Of a stretch of 64,000 nucleotides of DNA, positions 3,651-62,772 are shown piece by piece (positions within the stretch are counted from its first letter, which is position 1; each line of letters begins with the position of its first letter). Source of the stretch: Sphingopyxis sp. PAMC25046 (GTDB lineage Bacteria; Pseudomonadota; Alphaproteobacteria; Sphingomonadales; Sphingomonadaceae). Location: NCBI RefSeq assembly GCF_004795895.1, contig NZ_CP039250.1, positions 372,001 through 436,000 on the forward strand. Reading direction: 5' to 3'. The notes beneath the pieces were generated by a model. That model had not been told where the DNA came from. It saw only the letters and a program-made list of their open reading frames with translations, and made no database searches. The translations under genes were made by a program, and so were the position numbers.

Positions 3651-4394
3651 ATGCCGACGATGGACGCTGCGCATGCTTTTGCGCTCGACGTCACGCGGGT
3701 GAAGGATGCGGCGGGTCTGGCCGATCTGCTGGCGGAGGCCTGCGCGCGCATGGGCTGTTCCTGGTTCGCGCTGAGCCACCATGTCGATTTCCTCGCGGCT
3801 CCCGACAGGGGTGTTCGCGTCCACAACTATCCCGAGGATTGGGCCCGCTGGTTTGACGAGCGCGGCCTAGGGCTTACCGATCCGGTGCATCGCGCCAGTC
3901 ACCGCAGTCTCGAGGGTTTCTTCTGGCGCAACATGAAGCCGCTTTCGGGCGAACGCCCCGAGGACGAACTGGTTCTCAGTGAGGCGCAGCGGCACGGAAT
4001 AGGAGACGGGCTTACCATACCGGCGCATATTCCTGGCGAGGCGCATGGTTCGGTGTCCTTCGCCTGGACGCCGGGGATCGCCGCGAATGATATGGCGCTC
4101 CTCTTTGCCCGAATGATCGGTGGGCCAGCCTTCGAAGCCGCGCGGCTGCTCGCCAATCCCGAACTCGCGCAGGTCGGGCCGCGGCTGACGGACCGCCAGC
4201 GCGAATGTCTGATCTTGTCCGCCAAAGGCAACAGTGCCCCGAAGGTTGGACGCATCCTCGATCTCAGTCCCGACACGGTTCGCGAGCATCTTCGCAACGC
4301 GCGGCAGCGTTACGACGCGAATGGTGGGATCACGCTGACGGTGCGCGCGCTTTATGCCGGCGACCTCAGCTACGAGGATATCGCCAAGCGCTGA
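3651..4394 (+). CDS. luxR-like: LuxR-family quorum-sensing regulator (autoinducer-binding)
   Basis: 247 residues, the usual size of a LuxR/TraR protein. Residues about 15-165 form the autoinducer-binding domain. They contain YPEDWARWFDERGL followed by DPVHR, which corresponds to the conserved Y-x3-W ... DP ligand pocket. Residues about 180-240 are the LuxR helix-turn-helix (LTDRQRECLILSAKG, then SPDTVREHL). The luxI-type synthase follows 91 bases after its stop. By analogy with TraR of Agrobacterium and ICEMlSym, it probably senses the acyl-homoserine lactone made by the neighbour and may switch on transfer genes; the targets are not proven here. Confidence 0.93.
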   Translation: MPTMDAAHAFALDVTRVKDAAGLADLLAEACARMGCSWFALSHHVDFLAAPDRGVRVHNYPEDWARWFDERGLGLTDPVHRASHRSLEGFFWRNMKPLSGERPEDELVLSEAQRHGIGDGLTIPAHIPGEAHGSVSFAWTPGIAANDMALLFARMIGGPAFEAARLLANPELAQVGPRLTDRQRECLILSAKGNSAPKVGRILDLSPDTVREHLRNARQRYDANGGITLTVRALYAGDLSYEDIAKR

Positions 4395-4485
4395 ACTTTT
4401 TTCGCCGACACCCCCCGATCGTGCTATGGTGGAGTGGCAAAAAGCCGTTCAATTGGATGGTCTCTTTCGAAAAGGAGACACATCC

Positions 4486-5103
4486 ATGCTTTCGGTAATC
4501 GACCATTCCAACCGCGCGCACGAGCATCAATTGCTCCGCGCGATGTTCGAGGCGCGTAAGCGCGTCTTCATCGATCTTCTGAAATGGGACCTGCCGGTGC
4601 TCGCCGACCGGTTCGAGATCGATCATTTCGACGATCCCCATGCGACCTATCTGATCGTCGGCGATCAGGAGGGCGGGCATCTCGCCTCGGCGCGCCTCCT
4701 TCCCACCACGCGCCCGGCTCTTCTCGATGGTCTCTTCCCCGGCCTCGTCGACGGCATCCCGCCGTCCGGCCCCGACATCTTCGAGATCACGCGCTTCTGC
4801 CTGTCGCCGGGGATCGGTGCGCGCCAGCGCCGCACCGCGCGCGACACGCTTCTTGTCGGGCTGGTAGACTATGCGCTCGCCAACGGCATCCGCTCCTACA
4901 CCGGCGTCGCAGAGCTCGACTGGTTCGCTCAGATCCGGACCTTTGGCTGGGACTGCAAGGCGCTCGGCGAAGCCGGCATTTACGACGGCCGCGCGCTGAC
5001 CTCGCTGCGGATCGAGATCGACGCCGACACCCCCGCAAGGCTCAAGTCGGCGGGGATTGTTTCGGGCAGCGCTGCGACGCCGGTCGCGGCCAATGCAGCG
5101 TGA
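4486..5103 (+). CDS. luxI-like: Acyl-homoserine-lactone synthase (LuxI family)
   Basis: 205 residues from an ATG preceded by AAAGGAG at ideal distance; the longer in-frame start overlaps luxR and is rejected. LuxI hallmarks are visible: MFEARKRVFIDLLKWDLPV near residues 18-36 (conserved Arg, Phe and Trp), DHFDDPHATYLIV, and EITRFCLSP with the conserved Glu and Arg. The enzyme joins S-adenosylmethionine to an acyl group carried by acyl-ACP to make the autoinducer. Acyl-chain length cannot be read from the sequence. It lies in the same direction as luxR and 13 bases before the phyH-like gene, so synthase and dioxygenase are probably co-transcribed. Confidence 0.94.
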   Translation: MLSVIDHSNRAHEHQLLRAMFEARKRVFIDLLKWDLPVLADRFEIDHFDDPHATYLIVGDQEGGHLASARLLPTTRPALLDGLFPGLVDGIPPSGPDIFEITRFCLSPGIGARQRRTARDTLLVGLVDYALANGIRSYTGVAELDWFAQIRTFGWDCKALGEAGIYDGRALTSLRIEIDADTPARLKSAGIVSGSAATPVAANAA

Positions 5104-14276: not shown

Positions 14277-14363
14277 TCATCCCTCCCGTGCGGCCGATTT
14301 TGGCCGTCTGAAGGGAAAAAATGACGGGGGCTCCGAACACCCTATGGGTTTTTCTTGGGTGTC

Positions 14364-19613: not shown

Positions 19614-19696
19614 GCGGCGGCCATCTTGCGGCATCCTTGCGCATCGGAACAATCTTCCGGGTGCAAGGGTGCCGCCACCTTGTTAGGGTGACCCCA

Positions 19697-20626: not shown

Positions 20627-20632
20627 GACCCG

Positions 20633-20863
20633 CTACTTTTTCCCGCGGAACCGCTCGAATTTGGCCTTTCCCTCGGCAGTCTCGACCGCGACATTGGCAT
20701 TGCTGCATTCATCGCCGCGCTTGTCGCCCGCCGTGCAGCTTTGGACGACGTCGCGTGCCTCATCGAGATTGGCCTCGAAATATTGAACGCTGCGTGGCTC
20801 CGGCGGAGCACATGCTGTCAGGATCGTCAGGCTGGCGATCGCCAGCATCTTGAAAATGATCAT
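20633..20863 (-). CDS. EexN-family entry-exclusion lipoprotein
   Basis: 76 residues from an ATG with GGAGG five bases ahead. The N-terminus is a lipoprotein signal with lipobox LTAC (Cys near residue 18). The mature part has the EexN pattern: a YFEANLDEARDVVQSC segment and a second Cys in GDECSNA, followed by a charged C-terminal helix. EexN proteins on conjugative plasmids lower entry of a second related element. It faces the nucleotidyltransferase gene convergently and lies far from the trb cluster, which has its own TrbK. Confidence 0.75.
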   Translation of the reverse strand: MIIFKMLAIASLTILTACAPPEPRSVQYFEANLDEARDVVQSCTAGDKRGDECSNANVAVETAEGKAKFERFRGKK

Positions 20864-21072
20864 CGTCACCTCCGACGATCAACTCTAGCGTCGGCGACCC
20901 GGTCCATGCAGTGGCGATTTGAGATTTAGAACCAAATTGAGGCTAGTTCTCCGTCCATCGGCCTATGTGAGCCAGTTTTGCGCCATTCTTAGCTCTCTCT
21001 CAAGCGTCGCATTGGGCGGCGAGGCTCAAGGGAACGATTGAGGAAATCCGTCGCAAAAGCTAGTTTGCAACG

Positions 21073-22149: not shown

Positions 22150-22312
22150 CGCCAAAATCCTTCGTTGACGCCACCGGAGCGTTGCCAGTTTCGACGCTTT
22201 CCAGATTTCAGATGAAATTTTTTCCATTTTTTTAATGCAAATTTTCTGCGCAGCAAATATCAAGGTTTTTCCGAATATTCACTTTTAGGGTGATTTTTGC
22301 TGGGCACAAAAT

Positions 22313-24318: not shown

Positions 24319-24370
24319 TGACGAAGGCTGTGATCGCAGTTTCGTTCCGGCGCATTCCAAGAGCTTGCCC

Positions 24371-25087
24371 GTGAACAAAGCGATCATAGTCGGCGCGAGT
24401 TCAGGGATCGGCCGAGAGCTGGCGATGCTGCTCTCGCATCATGGCTATTCGGTTGGCGTCACCAGTCGGCGCCGCGACCTGCTCGCCAATCTCGCTGGCA
24501 ATTCTTCCGGTTCGATAATCTACGAGGCGTTCGACGTGGCCGACACGACCGCGATGCAACGCGGACTCGCCGCCCTGATCGAGCGGCTTGGCGGGCTCGA
24601 CTTGCTGGTGATCAGTGCCGGGGTCGGCCACATAAATGCCGATCTTGTCTGGGAGGCGGAACGCGAGACCATCGCGGTGAATGTCGAAGGTTTCGCGGCC
24701 GCGGCCAATATCGGCATGCAGCACTTCATCGCCCAAGGCACGGGGCATCTGGTGGCCATTTCGTCGATCGCGGGATTGCGGGGAAGCGGCGACGCGCCTG
24801 CCTACAATGCGTCCAAGGCCTTCGTCTCCAACTATATGGAGGCGCTACGCCAGAACATGGCGCGCCGGGGCCTGCCGATTGCAACGACCGACGTGCGGCC
24901 CGGCTTCGTCGACACCGCGATGGCGAAGGGTGACGGACTCTTCTGGGTTGCTTCGCCTGAAAAGGCGGCGAAGCAGATCTACGGCGCCATCCGCGCCCGT
25001 AAGTCTCATGCCTATGTCACCAAACGCTGGTGGCTCGTCGCTGGCCTGATGAAACTTCTGCCGAACGCCATCTACGACCGACTCTAG
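24371..25087 (+). CDS. Short-chain dehydrogenase/reductase
   Basis: 238 residues from a GTG at 24371; the longer in-frame start overlaps the previous gene. The Rossmann motif VGASSGIG lies near residues 6-13, the catalytic Ser in AISSIAG and the Tyr/Lys pair in YNASK, the classical SDR signature. It oxidises or reduces a hydroxyl/keto group with NAD(P). The substrate is unknown. It has no clear tie to the defence genes around it. Confidence 0.88.
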   Translation: MNKAIIVGASSGIGRELAMLLSHHGYSVGVTSRRRDLLANLAGNSSGSIIYEAFDVADTTAMQRGLAALIERLGGLDLLVISAGVGHINADLVWEAERETIAVNVEGFAAAANIGMQHFIAQGTGHLVAISSIAGLRGSGDAPAYNASKAFVSNYMEALRQNMARRGLPIATTDVRPGFVDTAMAKGDGLFWVASPEKAAKQIYGAIRARKSHAYVTKRWWLVAGLMKLLPNAIYDRL

Positions 25088-25097
25088 CCGCTCGCGA

Positions 25098-28034: not shown

Positions 28035-28816
28035 CGTGTCGTGAAGGCTGCGACGACCTTGTTCGTCCCGTCCATGAGCAGGCCGCACTGAATGTCGGCG
28101 ACCAGGACCGTCGAATTCACCGTGATATCGGTCGGATTGCTGATCGTCGTCTTGCCATAGGGGTAGGTGGCGCGAACGACATTCGGGAGCTTCGGCACGA
28201 CAACAAAGGCAATCTTGGCTTGGGGTTTGAAGGCTTGCGCTTCGGCGACGCTCATGGGGATGGTCCCGATGACCCCACCCTTGTTGGCGATGAAAAGCTC
28301 TTCGCCATAGCGCGCCGGTTCACCCTCGAAGATCGCGTTCTCGGTCCGGGTAATCTTGCTGATGGTGGCCTTCGCCCCGAAGCCATTCTGCGCGGAATAG
28401 GTGCCGGTCGTGACCTCGCTGCTCGAAATCGTCACGTCGAGGTTGCTGAGGGTGCTGGCCTTCGGACTTTCGACTTTTGCATAATAGAAGGTGTCCCAAG
28501 CGCTGAAGTTCGTATTGTCGAACAGGTAGGACTTCACCTCGAAGGCTCCGAGATCGGCATTATAGGCCAGATATTCCGCGCCTTCGATCTTCTTCGAGAT
28601 GATGAGGGGGCCGGAGCCGCCCGCTGCTGCGAGCCGGGCGCGGTATGCATCGCTGGTCTCGAATTCGTCCTTCGGCGCGACGGGCTTGATGGACGCGATA
28701 GCCTGGTCGAAGGTCTGGGGCTGCACCATGGTGCCCGTATAGGCTGCACAGCCCGATTGCGCCTGCGCCAGTCCCGGCGCGCAGATCAGCGCCGCAGCCA
28801 GAATGATTTTCCTCAT
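28031..28816 (-). CDS. Secreted protein of unknown function, coupled to the STAND gene
   Basis: 261 residues, ATG after GGGGGAG. A Sec signal peptide is clear (MRKIILAAALICAPGLAQAQ), so the mature protein should be periplasmic. The body is rich in Ser, Thr and Val and looks like a beta protein, with Cys near the start (SGCAAY) and near the end (IQCGLL) that could pair. I recognise no family. Its stop overlaps the start of the Avs-like gene (ATGA), so both are translated together. An exported protein tightly coupled to a cytoplasmic STAND NTPase is unexpected. Confidence 0.7.
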   Translation of the reverse strand: MRKIILAAALICAPGLAQAQSGCAAYTGTMVQPQTFDQAIASIKPVAPKDEFETSDAYRARLAAAGGSGPLIISKKIEGAEYLAYNADLGAFEVKSYLFDNTNFSAWDTFYYAKVESPKASTLSNLDVTISSSEVTTGTYSAQNGFGAKATISKITRTENAIFEGEPARYGEELFIANKGGVIGTIPMSVAEAQAFKPQAKIAFVVVPKLPNVVRATYPYGKTTISNPTDITVNSTVLVADIQCGLLMDGTNKVVAAFTTR

Positions 28817-28855
28817 TGGTTTTGCTCCCCCTTGAGCCCGTGCAAAATATCGAGA

Positions 28856-31819: not shown

Positions 31820-31991
31820 GGCGCGGCACGCTATCGTCAACAGGGGGGAAACGGAAGTGCCGCCGCCAGATCAAACCATTTTGGATCTATTTTGTGCCGG
31901 GGCCTGCGGCCTGATCGCAGGGCGGCTCGGGCTCGCCGGAACCGCAGGACTTGCCGGCCGTTTCCCAGTGGCAACGTCCATAGGAGCTGTC

Positions 31992-42733: not shown

Positions 42734-43696
42734 TCAGTTGCACTCGATCGTGACGTGACGCAGCTCGTGGACCGGCGCGAGGCGCTCGCGGATCGCCGCG
42801 CCGGTGAGACCGGCAGGCCCGGCGACGCTGACGATCGCGGCATGCGCGTCGGGTCCGAGGCGCCATACGTGAAGATCGACGATCCGGGCATCGCCGGGCG
42901 CCTCGACCAGCTCGCGGACTTCCTCCGCCACATGATCGTCGCTCCGGTCGAGCAGGACCGCGGCCGTGTCGCGCATCAGGCTCCACGACCAGCGCGCGAT
43001 CACGATCGCGCCGACGATCCCCATTACGGGGTCCATCCACACCCATCCGAGATAGCGTCCCGCAAGCAGGGCTGCGATGGCGAGCACCGACGTCAACGCA
43101 TCGGCAAGCACATGCACATAGGCCGAGCGCAGATTATTGTCGCCGCTCTGCGCCATTGGCCCATGGTTGTGATGATGATCGTCGCCATGGCCATGGCCAT
43201 GACCATGGTGATGTCCGTGCCCATGACCATGGTGATGCCCGCCCGACAGCAGGAAGGCGCTCGCAATGTTTACGCCAAGGCCAACCGCCGCGACGACAGT
43301 CGCCTCGAGAAAAGCGACGTTGGTCGGATTGAACAGTCGCGACACCGCTTCGACGCCGATGCCGAGCGAAACAAGCCCGAGCGCCATCGCCGAGGCAAAT
43401 CCTCCGAGATCGCCGACCTTGCCGGTTCCGAAGCTATAGGCCGCGTTGTGCGCATTGCGCTTCGCATAACCATAAGCGATCGCCGCCACGCCGAGGGCAC
43501 CGGCATGCGTCGCCATGTGGAAACCATCGGCGAGCAGCGCCATCGATCCCGTGATGTAGCCGGCGATGATCTCGCCGACCATCATCAGCGCGGTCAAAAC
43601 GACGACGAGCAGCGTGCGCCGGGCATTCTCGTCATGTGACGCGCCCAGGAACATATGATCGTGGACACGCGCGTCCGCGATGGGGGTAGTGGCCAT
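42734..43696 (-). CDS. dmeF-like: Cation diffusion facilitator, DmeF-like (Ni/Co/other divalent metals)
   Basis: 320 residues. The N-terminus has HDHMFLGASHDENARRT, the DmeF-type entry. Membrane helices follow, with the CDF metal sites in LLADGFHMATHAGAL and VLADALTSVLAIAALLAGRYLG (in parts). Between helices IV and V lies a very His-rich loop (HHHGHGHGHHHGHGHGHG within about 25 residues), the usual CDF cytosolic metal loop. The C-terminal domain ends with VHELRHVTIECN. It exports divalent metal ions using the proton gradient. A CsoR/RcnR-family regulator precedes it by nine bases, matching the dmeRF operon of rhizobia. Confidence 0.9.
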   Translation of the reverse strand: MATTPIADARVHDHMFLGASHDENARRTLLVVVLTALMMVGEIIAGYITGSMALLADGFHMATHAGALGVAAIAYGYAKRNAHNAAYSFGTGKVGDLGGFASAMALGLVSLGIGVEAVSRLFNPTNVAFLEATVVAAVGLGVNIASAFLLSGGHHHGHGHGHHHGHGHGHGDDHHHNHGPMAQSGDNNLRSAYVHVLADALTSVLAIAALLAGRYLGWVWMDPVMGIVGAIVIARWSWSLMRDTAAVLLDRSDDHVAEEVRELVEAPGDARIVDLHVWRLGPDAHAAIVSVAGPAGLTGAAIRERLAPVHELRHVTIECN

Positions 43697-43705
43697 TATG
43701 CGATC

Positions 43706-43981
43706 CTATTTGCTGTAGCGGCGGATAACGGTGAGCAACTCCTCGGCACCGGCCGCGCGCTCGGCGTCGGTCAGCCCCGGGCGCGAGACATGCTCCTCGA
43801 GATGATCGGAGATCACTTCCTCGATGAGCCCGGCGACCGCGCCGCGGACTGCCGCAACAAGATGCAGGACTTCGGCGCACGGCGCTTGCGACTGGAGCGC
43901 TCGCTCGATCGCGCCAACCTGTCCGCTGATGCGGCGGACGCGCGCAATGAGTTCGGAATTATCGCCTGAAAGATGTGCCAT
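43706..43981 (-). CDS. dmeR-like: CsoR/RcnR-family metal-sensing repressor, DmeR-like
   Basis: 91 residues from the ATG giving MAHLSGDNSELIARVRRISGQVGAIERAL. It is the all-helical CsoR/RcnR fold with one Cys (QAPCAEV, near residue 35) and His residues in LHLVAAV and SDHLEEHV positioned as metal ligands. Such tetramers release DNA on binding Ni, Co or Cu. Its own promoter region carries a C-rich tract typical of RcnR-type operators. It should repress itself and the efflux gene. Confidence 0.9.
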   Translation of the reverse strand: MAHLSGDNSELIARVRRISGQVGAIERALQSQAPCAEVLHLVAAVRGAVAGLIEEVISDHLEEHVSRPGLTDAERAAGAEELLTVIRRYSK

Positions 43982-43985
43982 AGGG

Positions 43986-44004
43986 ATACCCCCTACCCCT
44001 ACCC
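43986..44004 (-). promoter_or_regulatory. C-rich operator-like tract before the dmeR-like gene
   Basis: ATACCCCCTACCCCTACCC lies 5-23 bases upstream of the dmeR-like start and overlaps its ribosome binding site. RcnR/CsoR-family operators contain G/C runs flanked by TA steps, so autorepression through this tract is likely. Exact boundaries are inferred. Confidence 0.5.
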
Positions 44005-44271
44005 AAGGCAGAAGGCAAGCAACCTCGTGTGGAGAGGCACGATCGCCAAGTCCCACTACAGGGGCCACGGCGCACGCAGATTGTGGTCCGGGAGGAAGGC
44101 GCAAGGGCCTCCAGTCCCCGCGAAACCATACCCGCTCTCGATAGCCGCTGATCCCTGGGCTCGAAGCCGGGCCTCCTTCAATCAACCCGTGAAGGGTCCG
44201 CTACGCTTCGCGTGCGGCCGCAGCCTTGCTGCGGTGATTGCGGCCCGCCCCCGGCCGGCGGGGCGACTGTC

Positions 44272-45698: not shown

Positions 45699-45847
45699 AT
45701 ACTCTCATTTTGAGGCTTTTCGCGCGGGGATTCTCCGCCGCAATGCGTTACGATGATCCTTTGCATGCCGCTAACCATGTTCCAGCCGATGCGGGCAAGC
45801 TGCTGATAGGCTTTGCTTTCATTCCTGAAGATCAGCCGGAGGTGCGA

Positions 45848-46631
45848 ATGGATCAGGTCGTCGATTGGCAATCGCCATATTTTCCGAGAATATTCGAAAC
45901 ATATGATCGCGCCGATTTCGCGCAGGAGTTCCTGCGCCGAAGCCCGGCCTATCGCCGCGCCTATCGTTCGGCCGCGTTGGCGCCGACGCGGCGGCGCACC
46001 GCGCGCCTCGCTGGGCTGGCGCGACGATGGGGGTTGGTCTTTCGCCCTAGACCCTGACCGATCCGTCACCGAATCCCCCGCGCTCTGGCAGCCCGAGGCC
46101 TGCGCGCATGTCGCCATCGCCGAACCGGCGCCCGACGGCTTTGCCGCGCCGCGGCTCGCCGAGCTCATCGCCTCCGCGGATATCGCCTCCGAGATCATCC
46201 TGCCGGGCGAGTGGCATCTCGTGTTCGTGGCCGACGGACGGCGCTTCCGCCTCTGGCTTCGCCGCTTCCTCGCCGATGAACGGCTCGCCTATGTAAATCC
46301 GGCCGATCCGCACAGCGAGCTGCGGATGGCCGTGAGCCTCGCCGTACAGCGCCGCTTCTCGGCGGGCGTCACGACGCATCGCTTCCTGCGGGGAGGCGCC
46401 CCCGGACCATCCGAGCGCTGGCGTCTCATCCAGTGGCTGCGGCTCCTCGACGCCTCCGCCGAAGGGCGTTCGGCGCGCGACATCGCCGCCGCCCTCATCC
46501 TCGACGATGCCCAGGATTTCTCGGCCGCCGACTGGGACGGATCGAGCGAGCGCCGTCGCATCGCGCGCTGGCACCGCGCCGCGGTCGCGATGCGCGACGG
46601 CGGCTATCAGGAGCTGCTCGGCGCCGCCTGA
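45848..46631 (+). CDS. FseA-like activator: DUF6499 plus DUF2285, joined by an apparent +1 frameshift
   Basis: The ATG at 45848 has GGAGG five bases ahead. The first frame gives DUF6499 (VVDWQSPYFPRIFETYD, then FAQEFLRRSPAYRRAYR) and stops at 46057 after 69 residues. The DUF2285 part lies in the +1 frame and ends at 46631 (ALDPDRSVTESPALW ... ERWRLIQWLRLLDASAEG). Joining at a TTT-C (46040-46043) restores RRWGLVFALDPDR. In ICEMlSym(R7A), FseA is made by a programmed +1 frameshift between two such genes and activates excision and transfer. This looks like the counterpart; a plain mutation or sequencing error is the alternative. Confidence 0.75.
46040..46046 (+). other. Candidate +1 ribosomal frameshift site
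   Basis: In the first frame the codons read GTC TTT CGC CCT AGA CCC TGA. A tRNA-Phe on TTT can re-pair with TTC one base on, then GCC CTA GAC follows in the DUF2285 frame, giving F-A-L-D. The CCC-TGA at 46052-46057 is a second, less likely slip site. The site is inferred from protein continuity. Confidence 0.55.
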
Positions 46632-46750
46632 TCGGGACATTCCGCGCGTCGTCACTTTGTCCGTTCCTAAACCGCATCCCGATTTCCGAATGTCGCCGCC
46701 TCTCCGCCGGAGCCCCCCACGGGACCCGGCGCTGCGAACGGAGGCCCCTT

Positions 46751-47002
46751 TTGAGCGACATGCATACCCCCATTTCGCCGCGCTACCTCAAGACGCCCGA
46801 CGCTGCGCTGCACCTCGGCCTGTCGAGCCGGACGCTCGAAAAACATCGCTGCTTCGGAACGGGTCCCGAATACCGCAAACTCGGCGGGCGGATCGTCTAC
46901 GCGATCGCTGATCTCGACGCCTGGGCCGAGATCGGCCGCAAGAAGTCGACATCCGATCCCGGCAAGGGCGTCGTCCATCCCGCGCGCCCGGTCCGCCGCT
47001 GA
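46751..47002 (+). CDS. Small helix-turn-helix protein, RdfS/excisionase-like
   Basis: 83 residues from TTG 46751, which has GGAGG at ideal spacing; the ATG at 46760 (80 residues) is the other option. The body is a MerR/AlpA-type HTH: YLKTPDAALHLGLSSRTLEKHRCFGTG (in parts), then YRKLGGRIVYAIADLDAWAE. In R7A-type ICEs the equivalent gene, rdfS, follows the same order (before traF) and encodes the recombination directionality factor activated by FseA. That role is inferred here; a repressor is possible. Its stop overlaps the DUF2840 start. Confidence 0.75.
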   Translation: MSDMHTPISPRYLKTPDAALHLGLSSRTLEKHRCFGTGPEYRKLGGRIVYAIADLDAWAEIGRKKSTSDPGKGVVHPARPVRR

Positions 47003-47523
47003 TGCGCTCCGCCCAGAACATCCCGCCCGCTCCCGGCGTGCAGCCGGTCGCGGCGACCGCGAGCGGTCTCACCGACCTTGAGCTGACCTGGATCGAGCAG
47101 CGGCTCGAGAATTGGCTGCGCTTCGGCCGCGTCGCCGCCGAGCGCATCGTCAGCCGCCGGACGCGCATCGTCTCCTTCCGGCCCGAGGCCGTCTTCGGCT
47201 TCGTCCGTTGGGGCGCGAACGATTTCGGCACGATCTTCTCGAGCATCTCGGTCATCGCGGCGCCCGCGCCCCGCGCCCCCTTCGCGACGCATCCCTACGT
47301 GCGTCCCGGAGGCGACATCCTGCTCCGCGTCGACGGTTGGCCGAAGGTCCAGCAGGTGCTCTCGGCGATCGATGCGATCGAGGCCGACGGGCTCGACCCG
47401 TGCGAGACGGCGCCCGATCATTGGCGCCACATCGGCAGCCATATCGCCGCCGGACTGCCGTTCCGGCCCTATGGTCCGGAGCGGCACCGGGCATGGCTCC
47501 AGCGCAAGGCGATCGCGCCATGA
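47002..47523 (+). CDS. DUF2840 family protein
   Basis: 173 residues, starting in the stop of the HTH gene. DUF2840 features: TWIEQRLENWLRFGRVAAE, FRPEAVFGFVRWGANDFGT, and HWRHIGSHIAAG near the C-terminal end. The family is confined to conjugative elements and sits between the HTH gene and traF. Function unknown, presumably transfer-related from constant linkage. Confidence 0.9.
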   Translation: MRSAQNIPPAPGVQPVAATASGLTDLELTWIEQRLENWLRFGRVAAERIVSRRTRIVSFRPEAVFGFVRWGANDFGTIFSSISVIAAPAPRAPFATHPYVRPGGDILLRVDGWPKVQQVLSAIDAIEADGLDPCETAPDHWRHIGSHIAAGLPFRPYGPERHRAWLQRKAIAP

Positions 47524-48110
47524 ACCGCCGCTGGTTCCGCGCAACCGCGGCGAGCGCTACGCTCTTCGCGGGGCTGTTCGTCGCGGCGGCAGCGCTCGCG
47601 CCGAAACCGCGCCTCATCTGGAACGCGAGCCCGAGCGTTCCGATCGGCTTCTACCGCGTCGATGTCGGCGCCGATCCCGAGGTCGGCGACCTCATCCTCT
47701 TCCACCCGCCCGAGGCGGTCGCGACGCGCCTCGCGGTGCGCGGCTATGTGCCGCGCGGCGTGCCGCTCCTGAAGCATGTCGCCGCCGGTGAAGGCGCGCT
47801 CGTCTGCCGCAGCGGCACCTTCGTGACGATCGACGGCGCGCCGGCAGCGCGCGCGCGGGACGCGGACCGCCTCGGGCGGTCGCTGCCGCGCTGGCTCGGC
47901 TGCCATCTCCTGCGCCCCGGCGAACTGTTCCTCCTAAACCCCGCGCCCGACAGTCTCGACGGCCGATATTTCGGACCGCTCCCCGACACCGGCGTCGTCG
48001 GCGTCGCGCACCCGCTTCTCGTGCGCGATGCGCCCGGCGCGCCGCTGCGCTGGCGCCGTGACGCCGATCGCTCCGCATTCACCCTCGAAGGAAAGGATAT
48101 GTCCTCATGA
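47520..48110 (+). CDS. traF: TraF, S26-family conjugative transfer signal peptidase
   Basis: 196 residues, ATGA overlap with DUF2840. An N-terminal membrane anchor (ATLFAGLFVAAAALAP) leads to NASPSVPIGFYRVD with the catalytic Ser, and VPLLKHVAAGEG with the general-base Lys of S26 peptidases. Later comes FLLNPAPDSLDGRYFGP. TraF of RP4 processes and cyclises the TrbC pilin; the trbC gene in this window is the probable substrate. Confidence 0.92.
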   Translation: MNRRWFRATAASATLFAGLFVAAAALAPKPRLIWNASPSVPIGFYRVDVGADPEVGDLILFHPPEAVATRLAVRGYVPRGVPLLKHVAAGEGALVCRSGTFVTIDGAPAARARDADRLGRSLPRWLGCHLLRPGELFLLNPAPDSLDGRYFGPLPDTGVVGVAHPLLVRDAPGAPLRWRRDADRSAFTLEGKDMSS

Positions 48111-49158: not shown

Positions 49159-49288
49159 TGGTCGTCCTGGCGATATTTGCTGGAGTGCGCCGGTCCATGG
49201 ATAGGCACTGCTTGGCGTTCAGAAGGGGTTCGGGGGGATGGCAAGATAAAAGACCTGCCAGCTCGCCGGCAGATTGTGGTTGGATTAC

Positions 49289-49375
49289 AGCGCTTTATGC
49301 GTATGGCACCCCCCTCCGGCTGCCATATCGACCTCTGGATTTCCGAGGCAGAACAAGCGCTTACGATATGGCACC
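49289..49375. other. Candidate origin of transfer (oriT) upstream of the relaxase
   Basis: Between the transglycosylase and relaxase genes lie imperfect direct repeats, AGCGCTTTATGCGTATGGCA... at 49289-49310 and AGCGCTTACGATATGGCACC at 49356-49375. A perfect 10-bp inverted repeat, TGCCATATCG (49321-49330) with CGATATGGCA (49364-49373), overlaps the second. A short hairpin CTGCC/GGCAG lies just before. Relaxase-adjacent inverted repeats of this kind typify oriT, and the R7A ICE has its oriT at this position. Nick site unknown. Confidence 0.6.
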
Positions 49376-49381
49376 GGCGTT

Positions 49382-51127
49382 GTGAGCGGCGACGAGCATG
49401 ATTTTCGGGTGCGACCGGGAAGGGGTCGCGATGCGGGTTCGGGATCGGCGCGGCGCGGGAAGAGGCTCGCGGCGCAGGTGCGCAAGGCAGCCGCCCGCTC
49501 GGGTTACACCCGCTCCCGTCGGGGCGGCGGCGGTCGCAGCGGAACCGGTCGGCATGGCCGCGGCCGCGCCGCGCTTGCGACGATCCGGCGCGGCCCCGCG
49601 CAGCGCCGCGTGACGGTCATGGCGCGCATCGTCCGGCATAAGGGCGCGCAGTTTCGCTCCGCGCCTCTCGCACGGCATATCGCTTATCTCGAACGCGACG
49701 GCGTCACCCGCGATGGTCGCGATGCCATGATGTTCGATGCGTCTGGAGATACCGCCGACCGCGAGGCCTTTGCCGATCGCTGCGCCGACGATCGCCATCA
49801 TTTCCGTTTCATCGTCAGCCCTGAAGATGCGGAGCAATTGCAGGACCTTCGGACCTTCACCCGCGATCTCATGGGCCGGATGGAGAAGGATCTCGAGACC
49901 CGGCTCGACTGGGTGGCGGTCGATCACTGGAACACCGACAATCCGCATATCCATATACTCCTGCGCGGCGTCGCCGAGGACGGAAGCGACCTGGTCGTCG
50001 ACCGCGCTTATATGTCGGAAGGCGTGCGCGGACGGGCGTCGGAGATCGCGACCCTCGAACTCGGCCCGCGAAACGAACAGGAGATCGACGCGAGCCTCGT
50101 GCGGGAGACGGGCGCCGAGCGTTGGACCGGGCTCGATGCGCGCCTGCGCGAACGCGGCGGCGAAACGGGGATCGTCGATCTTCGTCCCGACCCAAGCTCG
50201 CCGCCGGGCCGCGATCGGCATCTCATCGGACGTGCGGCGAAGCTCGAGGCGCTTGGGCTTGCGACGCGCCTTGGACCCGGCATTTTCGAGATCGATCCGC
50301 GCGCCGAAACCCTATTGCGCGACCTCGGCGAGCGAGGCGACATCATCAAGGGCGTCCACCGCGCCATGCGCATGCAAGGGCTCTCCTTCGACGCATCGAG
50401 GCTCGCCCTTCACGGCGAGGCGGAGCGTTCGGGCCTCGTCGGGCGGCTGGTCGCACGCGGCCTCGACGATGAGCTTGCCGGCTCCGCCTTCGCCATCGTC
50501 GACGGGACCGATGGACGGACCCATCACATCAAATTCTCCGATCTCCAATGGACCGGGGACGCGAAGCCGGGCGCGGTCGTCGAGCTGCGGCGCTGGGAAG
50601 GACGCGACGGCGGCGAGCATCTCTCGCTCGCCCTGCGATCGGACCTTGCGGTCGCCGACCAGACATCCGCGCGCGGCGCAACCTGGCTCGACCGCGAGCT
50701 GGTCGCGGCGAAGCCCACGGCAGGAACCTCGGGCTTCGGCATCGATGTTCGCCGCGCCATGGCAGCGCGCGCCGAGTTTCTCGCGAGCGAAGGCCTCGCG
50801 AGCCGACAGAACGGCAAGCTCGTACTGGCGCCCGATCTCATCGAAACGCTGAAGCGGCGCGACCTCGAGGCGGCCTGCGAAACCATCGCCGCGCGCACCG
50901 GGCTCGCGCATCGCCCGCCGGCCACCGGCGACGCGGTGAGCGGGACCTACCGCGAGCGCGTGTCGCTCGCCTCGGGGCGCTTCGCGATGATCGACGACGG
51001 CCTTGGCTTTCAACTCGTGCCCTGGCGCCCGGCGCTCGACCGGCACCTCGGGCAGCATGTCACCGGCACCGCCACCGCGGGCGGCATCGACTGGAGCCTT
51101 GGCCGCGATCGCGGGATCGCAATCTGA
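49382..51127 (+). CDS. rlxS-like: Relaxase, RlxS type (DUF3363)
   Basis: 581 residues from GTG 49382 (MSGDEHDFRVRPGRGRD), the usual family beginning; no strong ribosome site is seen. An arginine-rich Gly segment (residues about 20-75) leads to the nicking domain: RHIAYLERDGVTRDG, then HFRFIVSPEDA, and DHWNTDNPHIHILLRG with the His pair that binds metal. The DUF3363 region follows (about 160-400). It nicks oriT and pilots the strand. It starts seven bases after the oriT repeats and precedes traG by 13 bases. Confidence 0.92.
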   Translation: MSGDEHDFRVRPGRGRDAGSGSARRGKRLAAQVRKAAARSGYTRSRRGGGGRSGTGRHGRGRAALATIRRGPAQRRVTVMARIVRHKGAQFRSAPLARHIAYLERDGVTRDGRDAMMFDASGDTADREAFADRCADDRHHFRFIVSPEDAEQLQDLRTFTRDLMGRMEKDLETRLDWVAVDHWNTDNPHIHILLRGVAEDGSDLVVDRAYMSEGVRGRASEIATLELGPRNEQEIDASLVRETGAERWTGLDARLRERGGETGIVDLRPDPSSPPGRDRHLIGRAAKLEALGLATRLGPGIFEIDPRAETLLRDLGERGDIIKGVHRAMRMQGLSFDASRLALHGEAERSGLVGRLVARGLDDELAGSAFAIVDGTDGRTHHIKFSDLQWTGDAKPGAVVELRRWEGRDGGEHLSLALRSDLAVADQTSARGATWLDRELVAAKPTAGTSGFGIDVRRAMAARAEFLASEGLASRQNGKLVLAPDLIETLKRRDLEAACETIAARTGLAHRPPATGDAVSGTYRERVSLASGRFAMIDDGLGFQLVPWRPALDRHLGQHVTGTATAGGIDWSLGRDRGIAI

Positions 51128-51140
51128 GAAAGGATGAACG

Positions 51141-53111
51141 ATGAGCGACAGGATATTATGGGGCCAGATCTTCGCGGTGCTGCTGATCGTCCTCGCGGCG
51201 GTCTGGACCGCGACCCAAGCGACGGCGGAAGCGCTCGGATTTCAGGCGGCGCTCGGTGCCCCCTGGTTCCGCATCGGCGACTATCCCGTCTATCCCCCGC
51301 CCGCCTTCTTCTGGTGGTGGTTTGCCTTCGACGCCTATGCGCCGCCGATCTTCTATCGCGGTGCCGCGATCGCCGCGTCGGGCGGGCTGCTGTCGGTTGT
51401 CGTCGCGATCAGCATGTCGGTGTGGCGTGCGCGCGAGCGCCGGCGGGCCGAGACCTACGGATCGGCACGCTGGGCGCAGGAGCGTGAGATACGGGCTGCC
51501 AACATGCTCGGCCCCGATGGCGTCATTCTCGGGCGCATGGCCGGAACATACCTGCGTCACGATGGCGCCGAGCATGTCCTCTGCTTCGCGCCGACCCGAT
51601 CCGGAAAGGGCGTCGGCCTCGTGGTGCCGACCCTGCTGACTTGGCCGGGGAGCTGCATCGTCCATGACATCAAGGGCGAGAACTGGCAGCTCACTGCGGG
51701 CTTTCGCGCAAAGCATGGCCGGGTGCTGCTCTTCGATCCGACCAACCCCGCATCGGCCGCCTATAATCCGCTCCTCGAAGTCCGGCGCGGCGCGTGGGAA
51801 GTACGCGATGTGCAGAATGTCGCCGACGTGCTGGTCGATCCCGAAGGAAGCCTCGAGCGCCGAAACCACTGGGAGAAGACAAGCCACGCCCTGCTCGTCG
51901 GCGCGATCCTCCATGTTCTCTACGCCGAGGAGGAAAAGAGCCTTGCCGGTGTCGCGGCCTTTCTGTCGAACCCCGAGCGCAAGATCGAGGCGACGCTCCA
52001 CCGGATGAAGACCACCAGCCATTTGGGAGATCGCGTCCACCCGGTCGTCGCCGCGGCGGCGCAGGAGCTGCTCAACAAGAGCGAGAATGAGCGGTCCGGC
52101 GTGCTGTCGACCGCCATGTCCTTCCTCGGTCTTTATCGCGATCCGGTGATCGCCAAGGTCACGGGACATTCCGAGTGGCGCATCGCGGACCTGATCGGAA
52201 GCGAGCGCCCGGTCTCGCTCTACCTCGTGGTGCCGCCCGGCGATATCAGCCGGACCAAGCCGCTCATGCGCCTGATCCTCAACCAGATCGGGCGGCGGCT
52301 GACCGAGGAGCTGAATCCCAAGGCACGGTCGCAACGGCTGCTGTTCATGCTCGACGAGTTTCCCGCGCTCGGACGTCTCGATTTCTTCGAAAGCGCGCTC
52401 GCCTTCATGGCGGGCTATGGCATCAAGGCCTTTCTGATCGCCCAGTCGCTCAACCAGATCGAGAAGGCCTATGGCCAGAGCAATGCGATCCTCGACAATT
52501 GCCACGTCCGGGTCAGTTTCGCGACGAACGATGAGCGCACCGCCAAACGGATTTCCGATGCGCTTGGCACTGCGACCGAGCAACGCGCGATGAAGAATTA
52601 TGCCGGCCATCGGCTCTCGCCCTGGCTCGGCCATTTGATGGTGTCGCGCACCGAAACCGCCCGGCCGCTGCTCACCCCCGGCGAAGTCATGCAGCTCCCC
52701 CCGGACGACGAGATCGTGATGGCCGCCGGCCTCGCACCGATCCGGGCCAAGAAGGCGCGCTACTATGGCGACCGGCGCCTGGCCGGCCGCGTCATTCCGC
52801 CGCCCGCACCCGGTCGCGGTCTTCCCGCCGGCCACGATTGGATGGCCGACCGGGTACAGCAGCCGATGGAGACGAAAGCGAAGGCGGCGGAGGACGATGA
52901 CGCGGCCAATGGCGGCATTCGGCAGGAACCCGAACTTCCCGTCCATGAGGATATCGCGCCGCCGCCGCCGCGCAGCGTCAATGGCGAGTTTGATTTCACC
53001 GAGGACGGAGCACAAGCCGATGCAGCGCGGCTTCGCGCCGCCGCGGATCGGCGGATGGCGCGGCGCGCTCAAGCTGCCGCGCTCGATCCCGACGATGGGA
53101 TCCAGCTGTGA
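51141..53111 (+). CDS. traG: TraG/VirD4-type coupling protein
   Basis: 656 residues. Two N-terminal membrane spans (about 7-27 and 70-95) precede the ATPase: FAPTRSGKGVGLVVPTLL (Walker A) and LLFMLDEFPALGRLDF (Walker B). FLIAQSLNQIEKAYG follows as in VirD4/TraG. The C-terminal about 90 residues are an acidic/proline-rich tail. It links the relaxosome to the Trb channel and pumps DNA. Start follows GAAAGGATGA; the CopG-like gene overlaps its stop. Confidence 0.97.
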   Translation: MSDRILWGQIFAVLLIVLAAVWTATQATAEALGFQAALGAPWFRIGDYPVYPPPAFFWWWFAFDAYAPPIFYRGAAIAASGGLLSVVVAISMSVWRARERRRAETYGSARWAQEREIRAANMLGPDGVILGRMAGTYLRHDGAEHVLCFAPTRSGKGVGLVVPTLLTWPGSCIVHDIKGENWQLTAGFRAKHGRVLLFDPTNPASAAYNPLLEVRRGAWEVRDVQNVADVLVDPEGSLERRNHWEKTSHALLVGAILHVLYAEEEKSLAGVAAFLSNPERKIEATLHRMKTTSHLGDRVHPVVAAAAQELLNKSENERSGVLSTAMSFLGLYRDPVIAKVTGHSEWRIADLIGSERPVSLYLVVPPGDISRTKPLMRLILNQIGRRLTEELNPKARSQRLLFMLDEFPALGRLDFFESALAFMAGYGIKAFLIAQSLNQIEKAYGQSNAILDNCHVRVSFATNDERTAKRISDALGTATEQRAMKNYAGHRLSPWLGHLMVSRTETARPLLTPGEVMQLPPDDEIVMAAGLAPIRAKKARYYGDRRLAGRVIPPPAPGRGLPAGHDWMADRVQQPMETKAKAAEDDDAANGGIRQEPELPVHEDIAPPPPRSVNGEFDFTEDGAQADAARLRAAADRRMARRAQAAALDPDDGIQL

Positions 53112-58013: not shown

Positions 58014-58532
58014 TCAGGCCGCGGCGAGCCGGGTCAGCGAATGACCGATCGACAGGCCTGCGATCACCATGAGCAGGATCGCAATGAGCAAACTCACGAC
58101 GATCACGACCCGGGCCTGAGGCCTGTAATTTGGCCTCAGCAAATCCCTGAACGGAGAGCCTTCGCTCCGAGGCCCGGCTCGGCTTGCCAAATTATCGTTC
58201 AGATGCAGCAAGCTGGCGGGGTCACCGTCCGGGAAGTCGGATGGCACCAGCTCGGGGGCTGGCGGTAGTATGACCGGATCACATGGTATCCGATCATAGG
58301 TCTGGCGCAGCCGCGCATAGATGATCGCGGTCTCGTCACGGTTGGCCGCGCCCAGCGTGTCGCGTGCGGTGGTGAGCCGCAGATCCACCGCCTGCTTCGA
58401 TATGTCGAGGTCGCGGGCGATCTGTTTCGAGGTTTTTCGTTCCAGCAGCAAATCGAGACAGGCCCGCTGCTTTTCTGTCAAGCGCGTCCACCTCAAGAAC
58501 TCGTCCGAATGCTGCGACCCCGAATCACTCAT
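58014..58532 (-). CDS. LuxR-type HTH protein with C-terminal membrane anchor
   Basis: 172 residues. Residues about 14-75 are a LuxR-type HTH (LTEKQRACLDLLLERKTSKQIARDLDIS, in parts). A Pro/Asp-rich linker follows, and one membrane span lies near residues 142-163 (VVIVVSLLIAILLMVIAGLS). This membrane-tethered regulator without sensor domain is typical of sphingomonads. It differs from the quorum-sensing LuxR at 3651 in having the HTH first and no ligand domain. It faces away from trbB. Confidence 0.8.
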   Translation of the reverse strand: MSDSGSQHSDEFLRWTRLTEKQRACLDLLLERKTSKQIARDLDISKQAVDLRLTTARDTLGAANRDETAIIYARLRQTYDRIPCDPVILPPAPELVPSDFPDGDPASLLHLNDNLASRAGPRSEGSPFRDLLRPNYRPQARVVIVVSLLIAILLMVIAGLSIGHSLTRLAAA

Positions 58533-58752: not shown

Positions 58753-59730
58753 ATGGGCGCAGAGCCGGTCCGTTTCGAGGCGCAGGGGCGTGGTGCCCGC
58801 ATGCTGCGTACAGCGCTTGGCGGCGCAATTGCCGAGTGGCTTGCCGACCCCGCGGTCATCGAAATCATGCTCAATCCTGACGGTCGGCTCTGGGTCGATC
58901 GCCTCGGCGCAGGGATCACCGATAGCGGTATCCTGCTCGCGGCCACCGACGGTGAGCGCATCATCCGGCTCGTGGCGCATCATGTCGGCGCCGAGGTCCA
59001 TGCCGGGTCGCCGCGCGTGTCGGCCGAGCTTCCCGAAAGCGGCGAGCGCTTTGAGGGTCTGTTGCCGCCCGTGGTCGCGGCGCCGACCTTCGCGATCCGC
59101 AAGCCCGCGGTCGCCGTCTTCTCGCTCGGCGATTATGTCGCAGCCGGCATCATGTCCGCACCGGCGGCCGAGGCGCTACGCTCCGGGGTCGCCGAGCGCC
59201 TCAATATCCTCGTCGCCGGCGGAACCGGGACGGGCAAGACGACGCTCACCAATGCCCTGCTCGCCGAGGTCGCCAAGACCAGCGAACGCGTCGTCCTGAT
59301 CGAAGACACCCGCGAGCTCCAATGCGCGGCTCCGAACCTCGTCGCGATGCGCACCAAGGATGGGGTCGCGTCGCTGTCCGATCTCGTCCGTTCCTCGCTT
59401 CGGCTTCGGCCGGACCGCATCCCGATCGGCGAGGTCCGCGGTGCCGAGGCGCTCGACCTTCTGAAGGCTTGGGGCACCGGACATCCCGGCGGCATCGGCA
59501 CGATCCACGCGGGCAGCGCGATCGGCGCGCTCCGCCGCATGGAGCAGCTCATTCAGGAAGCCGTGATCACGGTCCCACGGGCCCTCCTCGCAGAAACGAT
59601 CGATCTCGTTGCCGTTCTCGTGCGCGACGGCGCCGGGCGGCGCCTTGCCGAACTCGCCCGCGTCGACGGTCTCGATGCGTCGACCGGCGACTATCGCATC
59701 ACCCCCCTCTTTACCCCCGAAGGAGACTGA
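58753..59730 (+). CDS. trbB: TrbB, conjugation ATPase (VirB11 type)
   Basis: 325 residues. Walker A is [16 protein letters not shown] near residues 155-170. The Asp box [14 protein letters not shown] and the His box [15 protein letters not shown] follow as in VirB11 hexameric ATPases. It drives assembly and substrate transfer of the Trb type IV secretion system. First gene of the trb cluster, behind a 5-kb inserted block. Confidence 0.97.
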
Positions 59731-60065: not shown

Positions 60066-60334
60066 TGGATGCCCCGGCCGAAGTCACCGGTTTCTTCGCG
60101 CCCGTGCACCGCGCGCTCGCCGAGCCGATCCTGCTCGGCGGCGCGCCGCGCGCCCTCGCGATCGCCAATGGCACGCTCGCGGCCGGGATCGGCCTTGGCC
60201 TCCGCCTCTGGATCGCGGGTCTCGTCCTCTGGATCGTCGGCCATGCGCTCTCGGTCTGGGCGGCGCGCCGCGACCCGCAATTCGTCGACGTCGCCAAGCG
60301 TCACCTCAAATATCCTGTCTGGATGCGGCCATGA
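60065..60334 (+). CDS. trbD: TrbD (VirB3-like)
   Basis: 89 residues, start overlapping the trbC stop. It shows the VirB3/TrbD pattern: FFAPVHRALAEPILLGGAPR, then a hydrophobic segment and HALSVWAARRDPQF, with a terminal KRHLKYPVW. Inner membrane component of the channel. Confidence 0.92.
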   Translation: MDAPAEVTGFFAPVHRALAEPILLGGAPRALAIANGTLAAGIGLGLRLWIAGLVLWIVGHALSVWAARRDPQFVDVAKRHLKYPVWMRP

Positions 60335-62772
60335 TGAACCTCGCCGAATATCGCTCGAAGTCGGCCTGCCTTTCCGATTATCTCCCCTGGGTCGCGCTGG
60401 TCGCCGAGGGCGCGGTGCTCAATAAGGATGGCTCGTTCCAGCGAACCGCGGCCTTCCGCGGCCCCGATCTCGACAGCGCCACCCCCGCCGAACTCGTCGC
60501 GGTCACCGCCCGGCTCAACAATGCGATCCGGCGCCTCGGCTCCGGCTGGGCCTTGTTCGTGGAGGCGCAGCGGCTGCCGTCGAGCGATTATCCCGCATCC
60601 TCATTTCCCGATCCGGCATCCGCTCTTGTCGACATGGAGCGCCGCGAGCAATTCCGGGAGGAAGGGGCGCATTTCGAGAGCCGCTATTATCTGACCCTCC
60701 TGTGGATGCCGCCGGCCGAGGATGCCTCGCGGGCGGAGGGCTGGCTTTATGAGGGTATGGAGCGCTCGGGGGTCGATCCGAAGGAGCATCTCGCGAGCTT
60801 CATCGACCGGTCGAACCGCATCCTTCATCTCGTCGAAGGCTTCATGCCCGAGGCCGAATGGCTCGATGACGGCGAGACGCTGACCTATCTCCATTCAACC
60901 GTATCGACGAAGCGGCAGCGTGTCCGGGTTCCCGAGACGCCAGTCTATCTCGACGCGCTGCTGACGGACCAGCCGCTCATCGGCGGGCTTGAGCCGCGGC
61001 TCGGCGAGCAGCATCTGCGGACCCTGACGATCACGGGCTTTCCGACCGCGACCTGGCCCGGCCTCCTCGACGATCTCAACCGGCTGGCCTTCGCCTATCG
61101 CTGGTCGACCCGCGCGATCATGCTCGACAAGACAGACGCGACCAAGCTGCTGACGAAAATCCGGCGACAATGGTTCGCCAAGCGCAAGTCGATCGCGGCG
61201 ATCCTCAAGGAGGTGATGACCAACGAGCAATCGGCGCTCGTCGACAGCGATGCCTCGAACAAGGCGGCCGACGCCGACATGGCGTTGCAGGAGCTCGGCG
61301 CCGATCATGCCGGCGTCGCCTATGTGACCGCGACCGTCACCGTGTGGGACAGCGACGCGGCCCTCGCCGCCGAGAAGCTCCGGCTGGTCGAGAAAGTCAT
61401 CCAGGGGCGCGACTTCACCTGCACGATCGAGGGCATGAACGCGATCGAGGCCTGGCTCGGGAGCCTGCCCGGCCACGCCTACGCCAATGTCCGCCAGCCG
61501 CCGATTTCCACCCTCAACCTTGCCCACATGATCCCCCTGTCTGCCGTGTGGGCGGGGGCGGAACGGGACGAGCATTTCGGAGACGCCCCCTTGCTCTATG
61601 GCAAGACCGAAGGCTCGACCCCGTTCCGCCTTTCCCTCCATGTCGGCGACGTCGGTCATTGCCTCGTCGTCGGTCCGACGGGGGCAGGCAAATCGGTGCT
61701 GCTCGCGACGATGGCGATGCAGTTTCGCCGCTATCCGGGCTCGCAAATCTTCGCGTTCGATTTCGGCGGCTCGATCCGCGCCGCAGCCCTCGCGATGGGC
61801 GGGGACTGGCAGGATCTTGGCGGGGCGCTCCACGATGGCGAGGGCGGCGTGGCGTTGCAGCCGCTCGCCCGGATCGACGAGGCGTCCGAGCGGAGCTGGG
61901 CTGCCGAATGGCTCGCCGCGCTGTTCGCGGGCGAAGGCATGATGATCGACCCGGCGGCGAAGGAGCATCTCTGGTCGGCGCTGACCTCACTCGCGACGGC
62001 GCCTGTCGCCGAACGCACGCTGACGGGGCTCGCGGTGCTTCTCCAGTCGCGCGACCTCAAGCAGGCGCTCGCGCCCTATTTGGTCGGCGGACCCTGGGGG
62101 CGGCTGCTCGATGCCGACGAGGAGCGCATCGGGGCCGCGCGCGTGCAGGCCTTCGAGACCGAAGGCCTTGTCGGCGCCGCGTCGGCGGGACCCGTCCTGT
62201 CCTATCTGTTTCACCGGATCGCCGGACGGCTCGACGGCTCGCCGACGCTCATCATCATCGACGAAGGCTGGCTCGTGCTCGACAGCCCGGCCTTCGCGGC
62301 GCAGCTCCGCGAATGGCTGAAGACGCTCCGCAAGAAGAATGCGAGCGTGGTCTTCGCGACGCAGAGCCTTGCCGACATCGAAACCTCTAGCATCGCACCC
62401 GCGATCATCGAGAGCTGTCCGACCCGCATATTTCTGCCGAACGAGCGCGCGCTCGAGCCGCAGATTGCCCGCATCTACGAGCGCTTCGGTCTCAATGACC
62501 GGCAAATAGAGATACTGAGCCGGGCGACCCCGAAGCGCGACTATTATTGCCAGTCGCGGCGCGGCAATCGCCTCTTCGACCTGGGGCTAGGCGAGGTTGC
62601 GCTCGCCTTCACCGCGGCATCTTCGAAGACCGATCAGACGCGCATCGCGGAGCTGTTCGCAGCGCACGGCCCCGAAGGGTTCGCGGCCGCCTGGCTTTCC
62701 CACCGCAAGCTCGAATGGGCGGCCGAGCTGCTCCCCACCATTGCCGCCCCCAATGAGGAGTGCCCCCGATGA
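60331..62772 (+). CDS. trbE: TrbE, conjugation ATPase (VirB4 type)
   Basis: 813 residues, ATG overlapping the trbD stop. The N-terminal VirB4 region is followed by Walker A CLVVGPTGAGKSVLLATMAM near 445-460 and Walker B TLIIIDEGWLVLDSP, then FATQSLADI, all typical. It powers pilus and channel assembly. trbJ overlaps its stop (ATGA). Confidence 0.97.
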   Translation: MMNLAEYRSKSACLSDYLPWVALVAEGAVLNKDGSFQRTAAFRGPDLDSATPAELVAVTARLNNAIRRLGSGWALFVEAQRLPSSDYPASSFPDPASALVDMERREQFREEGAHFESRYYLTLLWMPPAEDASRAEGWLYEGMERSGVDPKEHLASFIDRSNRILHLVEGFMPEAEWLDDGETLTYLHSTVSTKRQRVRVPETPVYLDALLTDQPLIGGLEPRLGEQHLRTLTITGFPTATWPGLLDDLNRLAFAYRWSTRAIMLDKTDATKLLTKIRRQWFAKRKSIAAILKEVMTNEQSALVDSDASNKAADADMALQELGADHAGVAYVTATVTVWDSDAALAAEKLRLVEKVIQGRDFTCTIEGMNAIEAWLGSLPGHAYANVRQPPISTLNLAHMIPLSAVWAGAERDEHFGDAPLLYGKTEGSTPFRLSLHVGDVGHCLVVGPTGAGKSVLLATMAMQFRRYPGSQIFAFDFGGSIRAAALAMGGDWQDLGGALHDGEGGVALQPLARIDEASERSWAAEWLAALFAGEGMMIDPAAKEHLWSALTSLATAPVAERTLTGLAVLLQSRDLKQALAPYLVGGPWGRLLDADEERIGAARVQAFETEGLVGAASAGPVLSYLFHRIAGRLDGSPTLIIIDEGWLVLDSPAFAAQLREWLKTLRKKNASVVFATQSLADIETSSIAPAIIESCPTRIFLPNERALEPQIARIYERFGLNDRQIEILSRATPKRDYYCQSRRGNRLFDLGLGEVALAFTAASSKTDQTRIAELFAAHGPEGFAAAWLSHRKLEWAAELLPTIAAPNEECPR

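Follow-up and report, generated by a model that had tools for sequence, protein, structure and literature searches.

A candidate FseA-type transfer activator encoded in two frames, with a +1 slip site, on a mobile element of Sphingopyxis sp. PAMC25046

We find that a gene of Sphingopyxis sp. PAMC25046 very probably (about 93% in our estimate) encodes an FseA-type transfer activator that is written in two reading frames and made by a +1 frameshift. The gene lies in the window, i.e., the whole stretch of 64,000 nucleotides of DNA that was analysed (Table 1). According to passages of PMC10359603, genes resembling fseA and their +1 site are spread throughout the alpha-, beta- and gammaproteobacteria. 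Given that these passages already count 4709 FseA homologues, about 61% of them with the +1 split, the gene is an added case of a known family. Thus, the original prediction that such control occurs outside rhizobia had been anticipated in print. The activator described here is a new and well-documented addition to a family with known members in rhizobia and other proteobacteria.

The split gene and its joined product

The two halves of the activator had been predicted to lie in different, overlapping frames, and Pfam searches agree. The zero-frame ORF matches PF20109 (formerly DUF6499, now Trans_reg_dom) with an E-value of 6e-17, and the +1 frame contributes PF10074 (formerly DUF2285, now RovC_DNA-bd), matched in the joined protein with an E-value of 3e-21. 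The +1 frame stays open across the junction and the two ORFs overlap. The sequence also reads as predicted at the TTT-C slip, where TTT (46040-46042) followed by C46043 gives a joined protein running ...RRWGLVF-ALDPDR, with F as residue 65, and the product of the +1 step can be aligned with its relatives over its entire length. The codon right after the slip is CGC, a sense codon and not a stop. A GGAGG-like stretch precedes the start codon in most of the aligned relatives, and identical activator sequences are present in named Sphingopyxis records. The domains, the +1 geometry, the slip site, the kept split, the RdfS-like neighbour and the luxI linkage all fit the FseA-like reading that had been proposed.

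Table 1. Features of the activator locus and associated genes (positions in the window)
Feature	Position	Strand	Basis or remark
LuxR-type regulator with autoinducer-binding domain	3651..4394	+	
LuxI/TraI-type autoinducer synthase ORF, candidate start	4354..5103	+	NCBIfam TraI models below cut-offs
Likely ribosome-binding site GGAGG for ATG 45848	45838..45842	+	read from sequence
Zero-frame ORF, ATG 45848 to TGA 46055-46057, 69 aa, DUF6499/PF20109 half	45848..46057	+	
TGGGGGTT, Shine-Dalgarno-like, G-run ending 6 nt 5' of the slip codon	46028..46035	+	putative function
Slip site TTT-C, Phe65, UUU to UUC, +1	46040..46043	+	
+1-frame ORF past the slip, middle domain and DUF2285/PF10074 half, stop 46629-46631	46044..46631	+	
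28-bp inverted repeat GGACAT-N16-TTGTCC, FseA-box-like	46635..46662	+	sole match in the window
RdfS-like HTH_17 protein, 80 aa	46760..47002	+	Pfam HTH_17; best solved-structure match 8dgl RdfS, E 3.4e-11
DUF2840 gene	47002..47523	+	domain match
ORF with TraF-like signal peptidase S26 domain, candidate start	47112..48110	+	
Relaxase, DUF3363	49274..51127	+	RlxS model E 5e-161, 537.5 bits against a cut-off of 850
TraG-type coupling protein	51141..53111	+	
T2SSE-domain ATPase, taken as TrbB-like	58753..59730	+	name putative
TrbE/VirB4-type ATPase	60331..62772	+	

The pattern TGGGGGTTGNNNTTTC, which was picked post hoc from these genes, is found exactly twice in the 5.2-Mb host genome, at its two fseA-like genes. 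The second of these (L073, G000:C1:4229689-4230861, gene 4230099-4230861) is also split, with TGGGGGTTGGTGTTTCCC; it is preceded at a short distance by a lone DUF2285 (QseM-like) ORF and followed by a replication initiator of the RPA type. A lone DUF2285 ORF upstream and an initiator gene downstream likewise flank the activator on Indioceanicola and Sphingopyxis indica plasmids.

The joined protein is predicted to form one coherent fold. An AlphaFold2 model of residues 13-260, based on 57 sequences, has a mean pLDDT of 90.6 and a pTM of 0.88, and the slip residue sits in a block averaging a pLDDT of 96. Foldseek searches of this model against the PDB gave 762 matches at E ≤ 10, none of them at E ≤ 0.001, and RovC was absent from the best 50. 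A profile built from the homologue alignment placed two PDB entries at the top, both weak matches, viz., RovC (6xz5; E-value 0.019) and 7uqt (E-value 0.036), which is titled 'Quorum sensing master protein' and which we took as QseM. A phmmer search of the PDB with the joined protein returned five matches at E ≤ 1, the best of which (E-value 0.098) is unrelated. In passages of PMC10359603, RovC is described as an activator of type VI secretion genes and QseM as an antiactivator with DUF2285 alone.

Conservation of the split and competing explanations

Protein searches with the joined query (the 7997 candidates with the most words in common being scored) retrieved 51 matches. PF10074 alone was found in 44 of these homologues, at 50-93% identity, and 36 of the 44 span 70-94% of the joined query, as would be expected if gene finders detect just the second frame. 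Another homologue combines PF10074 with PF22792, and both activator domains share one frame in only five distant homologues (P0047-P0051; 32-40% identity). A metagenome protein, P0045, consists of most of a DUF736 protein fused to the DUF6499 half (PF20109), as if the intervening stretch had been deleted.

At the DNA level, 32 loci were recovered from named genomes, and matches at E ≤ 0.001 were found in 47 of 79 genomes of the genus, the own genome counted. The 62 loci with both halves reduce to 41 distinct sequences, window included, of which 40 are split +1; TGGGG-N7-TTTC is present in 39 of these 40, the remaining split one being L029 with TTTT, and the sole unsplit one is L019 from Sphingomonas soli, which is continuous. 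PF20109 was matched in 14 of 289 genomes of the class and in 27 of 299 genomes of the phylum, again with the own genome included. For the wider set, 111 loci entered the scoring and five were dropped, L033 and L110 with one half unmatched and L111, L112 and L115 with the N-half match not in place. The original prediction had proposed that aligned orthologues would reveal whether the split and slip site are shared. They largely are, as 76 of the 83 distinct sequences, window included, are split, always +1 and never +2, and seven are continuous, though continuous relatives are under-counted, since L111, L112 and L115 had earlier been in one ORF and L110 has a long zero frame. The exact TGGGG-N7-TTTC occurs in 72 of the 76 split sequences and TTT stands at the site in 74. 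The exceptions are L086, with an extra codon ahead of TTTC; L029, with TTTT at the slip site and still split +1; L093, split without the motif, where the +1 frame opens only 160 bases past the zero-frame stop; and L100, likewise without the motif (TGG AGG TTG CGG TGT C), which is perhaps a decaying copy. Past the slip codon the zero frame continues for a median of 8 further codons (range 2-236; 10 or fewer in 51 of 74 sequences), and the length of this tail is not conserved.

Four named plasmid loci, drawn from 64 plasmid records matching a distant relative, share the motif (Sinorhizobium medicae, Indioceanicola, Sphingopyxis indica and Paracoccus pantotrophus); in three of them the annotation gives DUF6499 and DUF2285 as two distinct genes, and in the fourth this stretch is unannotated. 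Queried with the joined protein, the plasmid collection gave a single record, from Paracoccus denitrificans, at 34%. A search initiated with a continuous relative at E ≤ 1e-20, in which up to six candidates per genome were scored, found matches in at least 4 of 397 family genomes; the continuous homologues were too few for a comparison of codon use.

Skipping one base would restore a single frame, which is also what an extra base introduced by sequencing or assembly into a continuous gene would look like. We regard such an error as extremely improbable given that the identical split recurs in separately assembled genomes and named records, and in 76 of 83 distinct sequences it is +1 without exception; the codon bias at the slip motif, described below, likewise argues against it. 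Decay of an activator broken by an indel is scarcely a stronger contender. In its favour, annotations show fragments alone, L093 and L100, both from other genomes, may be decaying copies, and two of the seven comparisons made between other relatives suggest weak selection on the N half. In these two the raw non-synonymous counts exceed the synonymous ones (L013-L047, 3 against 1; L010-L055, 6 against 3), and because of this reversal the case for N-half constraint among the other relatives is weaker, while in the C half synonymous changes outnumber non-synonymous ones in all seven. Against decay, six comparisons with L001, which are not independent, give 18 synonymous changes to 1 non-synonymous in the zero-frame N half and 88 to 4 in the +1-frame C half. 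Moreover, the split with the same site is common to the genus, the class and the phylum, and a confident single fold is predicted for the joined protein.

The halves could also be two separate proteins, with the DUF2285 part started independently or by re-initiation and no fusion made. Both halves are kept, proteins with DUF2285 alone exist, and the Shine-Dalgarno-like stretch might in principle serve a start. Yet ATG, GTG or TTG in the +1 frame occurs between -30 and +60 of the slip in just 21 of 74 split sequences, and ATG in four; the window has no +1 start codon in this range, the first one after the slip being a GTG at 46221, 59 codons on. The fixed TTT is also unexplained by two separate proteins, and we consider this alternative improbable, if less so than either an error or a pseudogene. 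A full-length activator made by +1 frameshifting at TTT-C is the reading that we prefer.

The slip site and its possible stimulators

The codons just before the slip are biased among 43 representatives chosen at 60% protein identity, with the C halves of the same genes as codon background. GGG encodes the Gly in 23 of 42 cases as against 78 of 583 C-half Gly codons (p 2.7e-10), and TTG encodes the Leu in 19 of 37 (p 1.3e-9). The presence of TTT in 43 of 43 representatives is circular, as the search for the slip demanded it. Among 64 well-conserved C-half columns, the strongest bias (p 4e-8) is towards a common codon, CTC. GGC, GGT or GGA replaces GGG in 19 of 42, so the Shine-Dalgarno-like element is not universal. 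Of 74 sequences, 44 have CGC and 23 have CCC as the codon following the slip. No published description of the GGG-TTG bias was found in the abstracts and passages searched.

Pairing with CACCUCCUUU, computed in 8-nt windows over 74 sequences, averages -8.1 kcal/mol at position -12 as against -1.3 from -60 to -25, and much of it is due to the Trp-Gly pair. The stretch before the slip may thus be read, as we do from its sequence, as an internal Shine-Dalgarno-like stimulator, with codon rarity a live alternative. Both GGG and TTG belong to the less used codons of these genes, and the bias could reflect slow, rare codons that pause the ribosome and not pairing with the anti-Shine-Dalgarno. We find this explanation rather unlikely: the best-window mean of -7.47 beats each of 200 synonymous recodings made at random with the codon usage of these genes (mean -5.85, sd 0.19), a test that cannot by itself separate pairing from rarity. 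A downstream RNA stimulator is unsupported in the stretches folded, since six of 100 nt past the slip gave z-scores from +0.99 to -2.11, with L011 alone below -2, and a seventh, spanning the slip, gave -1.59.

The site resembles the prfB (RF2) cassette in that a +1 slip takes place at a pyrimidine tetramer after a G-rich Shine-Dalgarno-like stretch. In prfB the order is AGGGGG, 3 nt, CTTT and then a stop in the A site, as given in the passages of PMC12421855. In contrast, the site here has GGGGG, a spacing of 6 nt, TTTC and then a sense codon in place of the A-site stop, with the stop four codons on. We tentatively suggest that the FseA-family site may constitute a distinct +1 cassette, in which Shine-Dalgarno-like UGGGGGUU would keep the ribosome in place with UUU in the P site, at the spacing usual for initiation, and the slip would be followed by a sense codon and not by a stop, no downstream structure being evident; we hold this to be possible, though somewhat short of an even chance. 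If true, anti-Shine-Dalgarno pairing would help to set how often a great many mobile elements transfer. The pre-slip codon bias offers a direct and testable idea of what causes the slippage.

The mobile element and comparison with known systems

Exact repeats of a tRNA-Gly(GCC) 3' end, 51-55 bp pairwise, are located at G000:C1:4656257, 4777604 and 4926096. The first is part of an intact tRNA-Gly(GCC) gene, and minus-strand integrase domains lie just before the second and third (4776212 and 4924730, the latter with Arm-DNA-bind_3 and Phage_integrase). We infer two tandem elements at one tRNA-Gly(GCC), G000:C1:4656257-4926126, with the window (4851473-4915472) inside the second element of ~148.5 kb, which carries luxR and luxI. 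A lasso-peptide cluster is present within the element (window 6746-15925), with two 40-codon precursor-like ORFs recognized by eye (6746-6868 and 6937-7059), a B2 protein (7116-7775), an Atxe2-type isopeptidase (9373-11673, minus strand), a TonB receptor, FecR and a sigma factor. Further cargo appears defence-like (19067-31840) and comprises HEPN and nucleotidyltransferase, PIN and AAA_21 ATPase domains, as well as SEC-C with a match to Cap4 nuclease below threshold. A cation-efflux gene next to a metal-sensitive repressor (42734-44185, minus strand) lies immediately ahead of the transfer region. Among the transfer genes is a 172-aa protein with a LuxR-type HTH (GerE; 58014-58532, minus strand) and no autoinducer-binding domain by Pfam.

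The inverted repeat begins three bases past the activator stop codon. Searching for GGACAT/TTGTCC with a spacer of 14-18, a pattern picked after the alignment was viewed, gave one match in the window as against 0.01 expected in shuffles. All 21 distinct sequences downstream of close loci, i.e., loci whose C half shows 50% identity or more, have the repeat (spacer of 16 bp in 18 and of 17 bp in three), and none of 19 from distant loci does. In the 18 with equal spacers neither hexamer varies, nor do the flanking bases or six of the 16 spacer positions; the other 10 spacer positions vary. Ten distant loci (L019, L021-L023, L025-L028, L033 and L062) are without GGACAT-N16-TTGTCC and have, by eye, a AGCCGCTCC stretch at or soon after the activator stop, which is perhaps the box of another subfamily.

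The original prediction had claimed conserved linkage to an RdfS-like gene and to luxR/luxI. The RdfS-like gene indeed adjoins the activator, but luxR/luxI, on the same element, are ~41 kb away. At 17 of 28 close loci, window included (C-half E-value below 1e-59 in the genus search), a luxI homologue lies up to 80 kb upstream on the same strand, two of the 17 being mirror-image copies on one contig; of the other 11, seven lack luxI on the contig and four have it farther off, and no other arrangement was seen within 80 kb. The mirror-image copies (L006 and L018 on NZ_LNRU01000012.1; G027:C12, luxI at 12178+ and 129384-, fseA at 53524+ and 87867-) may reflect a true inverted duplication or else an artefact of assembly. 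In the genus as a whole LuxI homologues are frequent, 59 of 79 genomes having one at E ≤ 1e-10.

By homology and conservation, we infer frameshifting, binding to the repeat and AHL control as follows. Only a small share of ribosomes would slip, with peptidyl-tRNA-Phe re-pairing from UUU to UUC; all others would go on for four codons to the stop at 46055-46057 and yield the DUF6499 peptide by itself. The full-length protein, made rarely, would bind the repeat and turn on the rdfS-like and traF-relaxase genes, and its scarcity would keep excision and transfer rare. Transcription of the activator is probably controlled by the luxR/luxI pair on the element. The same control logic as in ICEMlSym(R7A) had been predicted here, and it is favoured by the RdfS-like gene and by luxR/luxI on the element; on the other side, no QseM-like, DUF2285-only antiactivator was found in the element (of four PF10074 matches in the genome at E ≤ 0.001, the only one within the element is the activator itself), and no clear palindrome that could be a Lux/Tra box was recognized by eye in the upstream alignment.

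The gene shares with FseA (msi172-msi171) of ICEMlSym(R7A) from Mesorhizobium japonicum the DUF6499 and DUF2285 domains, the overlapping ORFs and the +1 join, and the two elements have in common an RdfS gene, FseA-box geometry, rdfS ahead of traF and relaxase, and AHL genes. Slippage of tRNA-Phe from UUU to UUC in R7A was reportedly described in the 2015 PNAS paper. The slip site of R7A fseA we take to be UUU-C, and its position presumably separate from rdfS, whereas the activator here is directly upstream of the rdfS-like gene. The R7A frameshift is also covered in the Atkins review, as passages of PMC5009743 indicate. The published FseA box consists of two inverted hexamers 16 bp apart, 28 bp in total, with the nearer hexamer 62-67 bases upstream in the published logo (passages of PMC10359603); by geometry, and not by the letters of the R7A box, the repeat here compares well, but its distance to the start is longer, as it ends 97 bp before the rdfS-like ATG. 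Downstream of the rdfS-like gene the order is DUF2840, S26 (TraF-like), DUF736, transglycosylase, relaxase and TraG, and in R7A rdfS is followed by traF, msi107 and rlxS according to passages of PMC11963761. Also unlike R7A, the host is a sphingomonad and its element seems to be without the QseM arm, which makes the R7A model testable in an unrelated host. A known transfer switch is here placed in an element of Sphingopyxis in which the likely target gene, the likely binding repeat and the putative ends are mapped.
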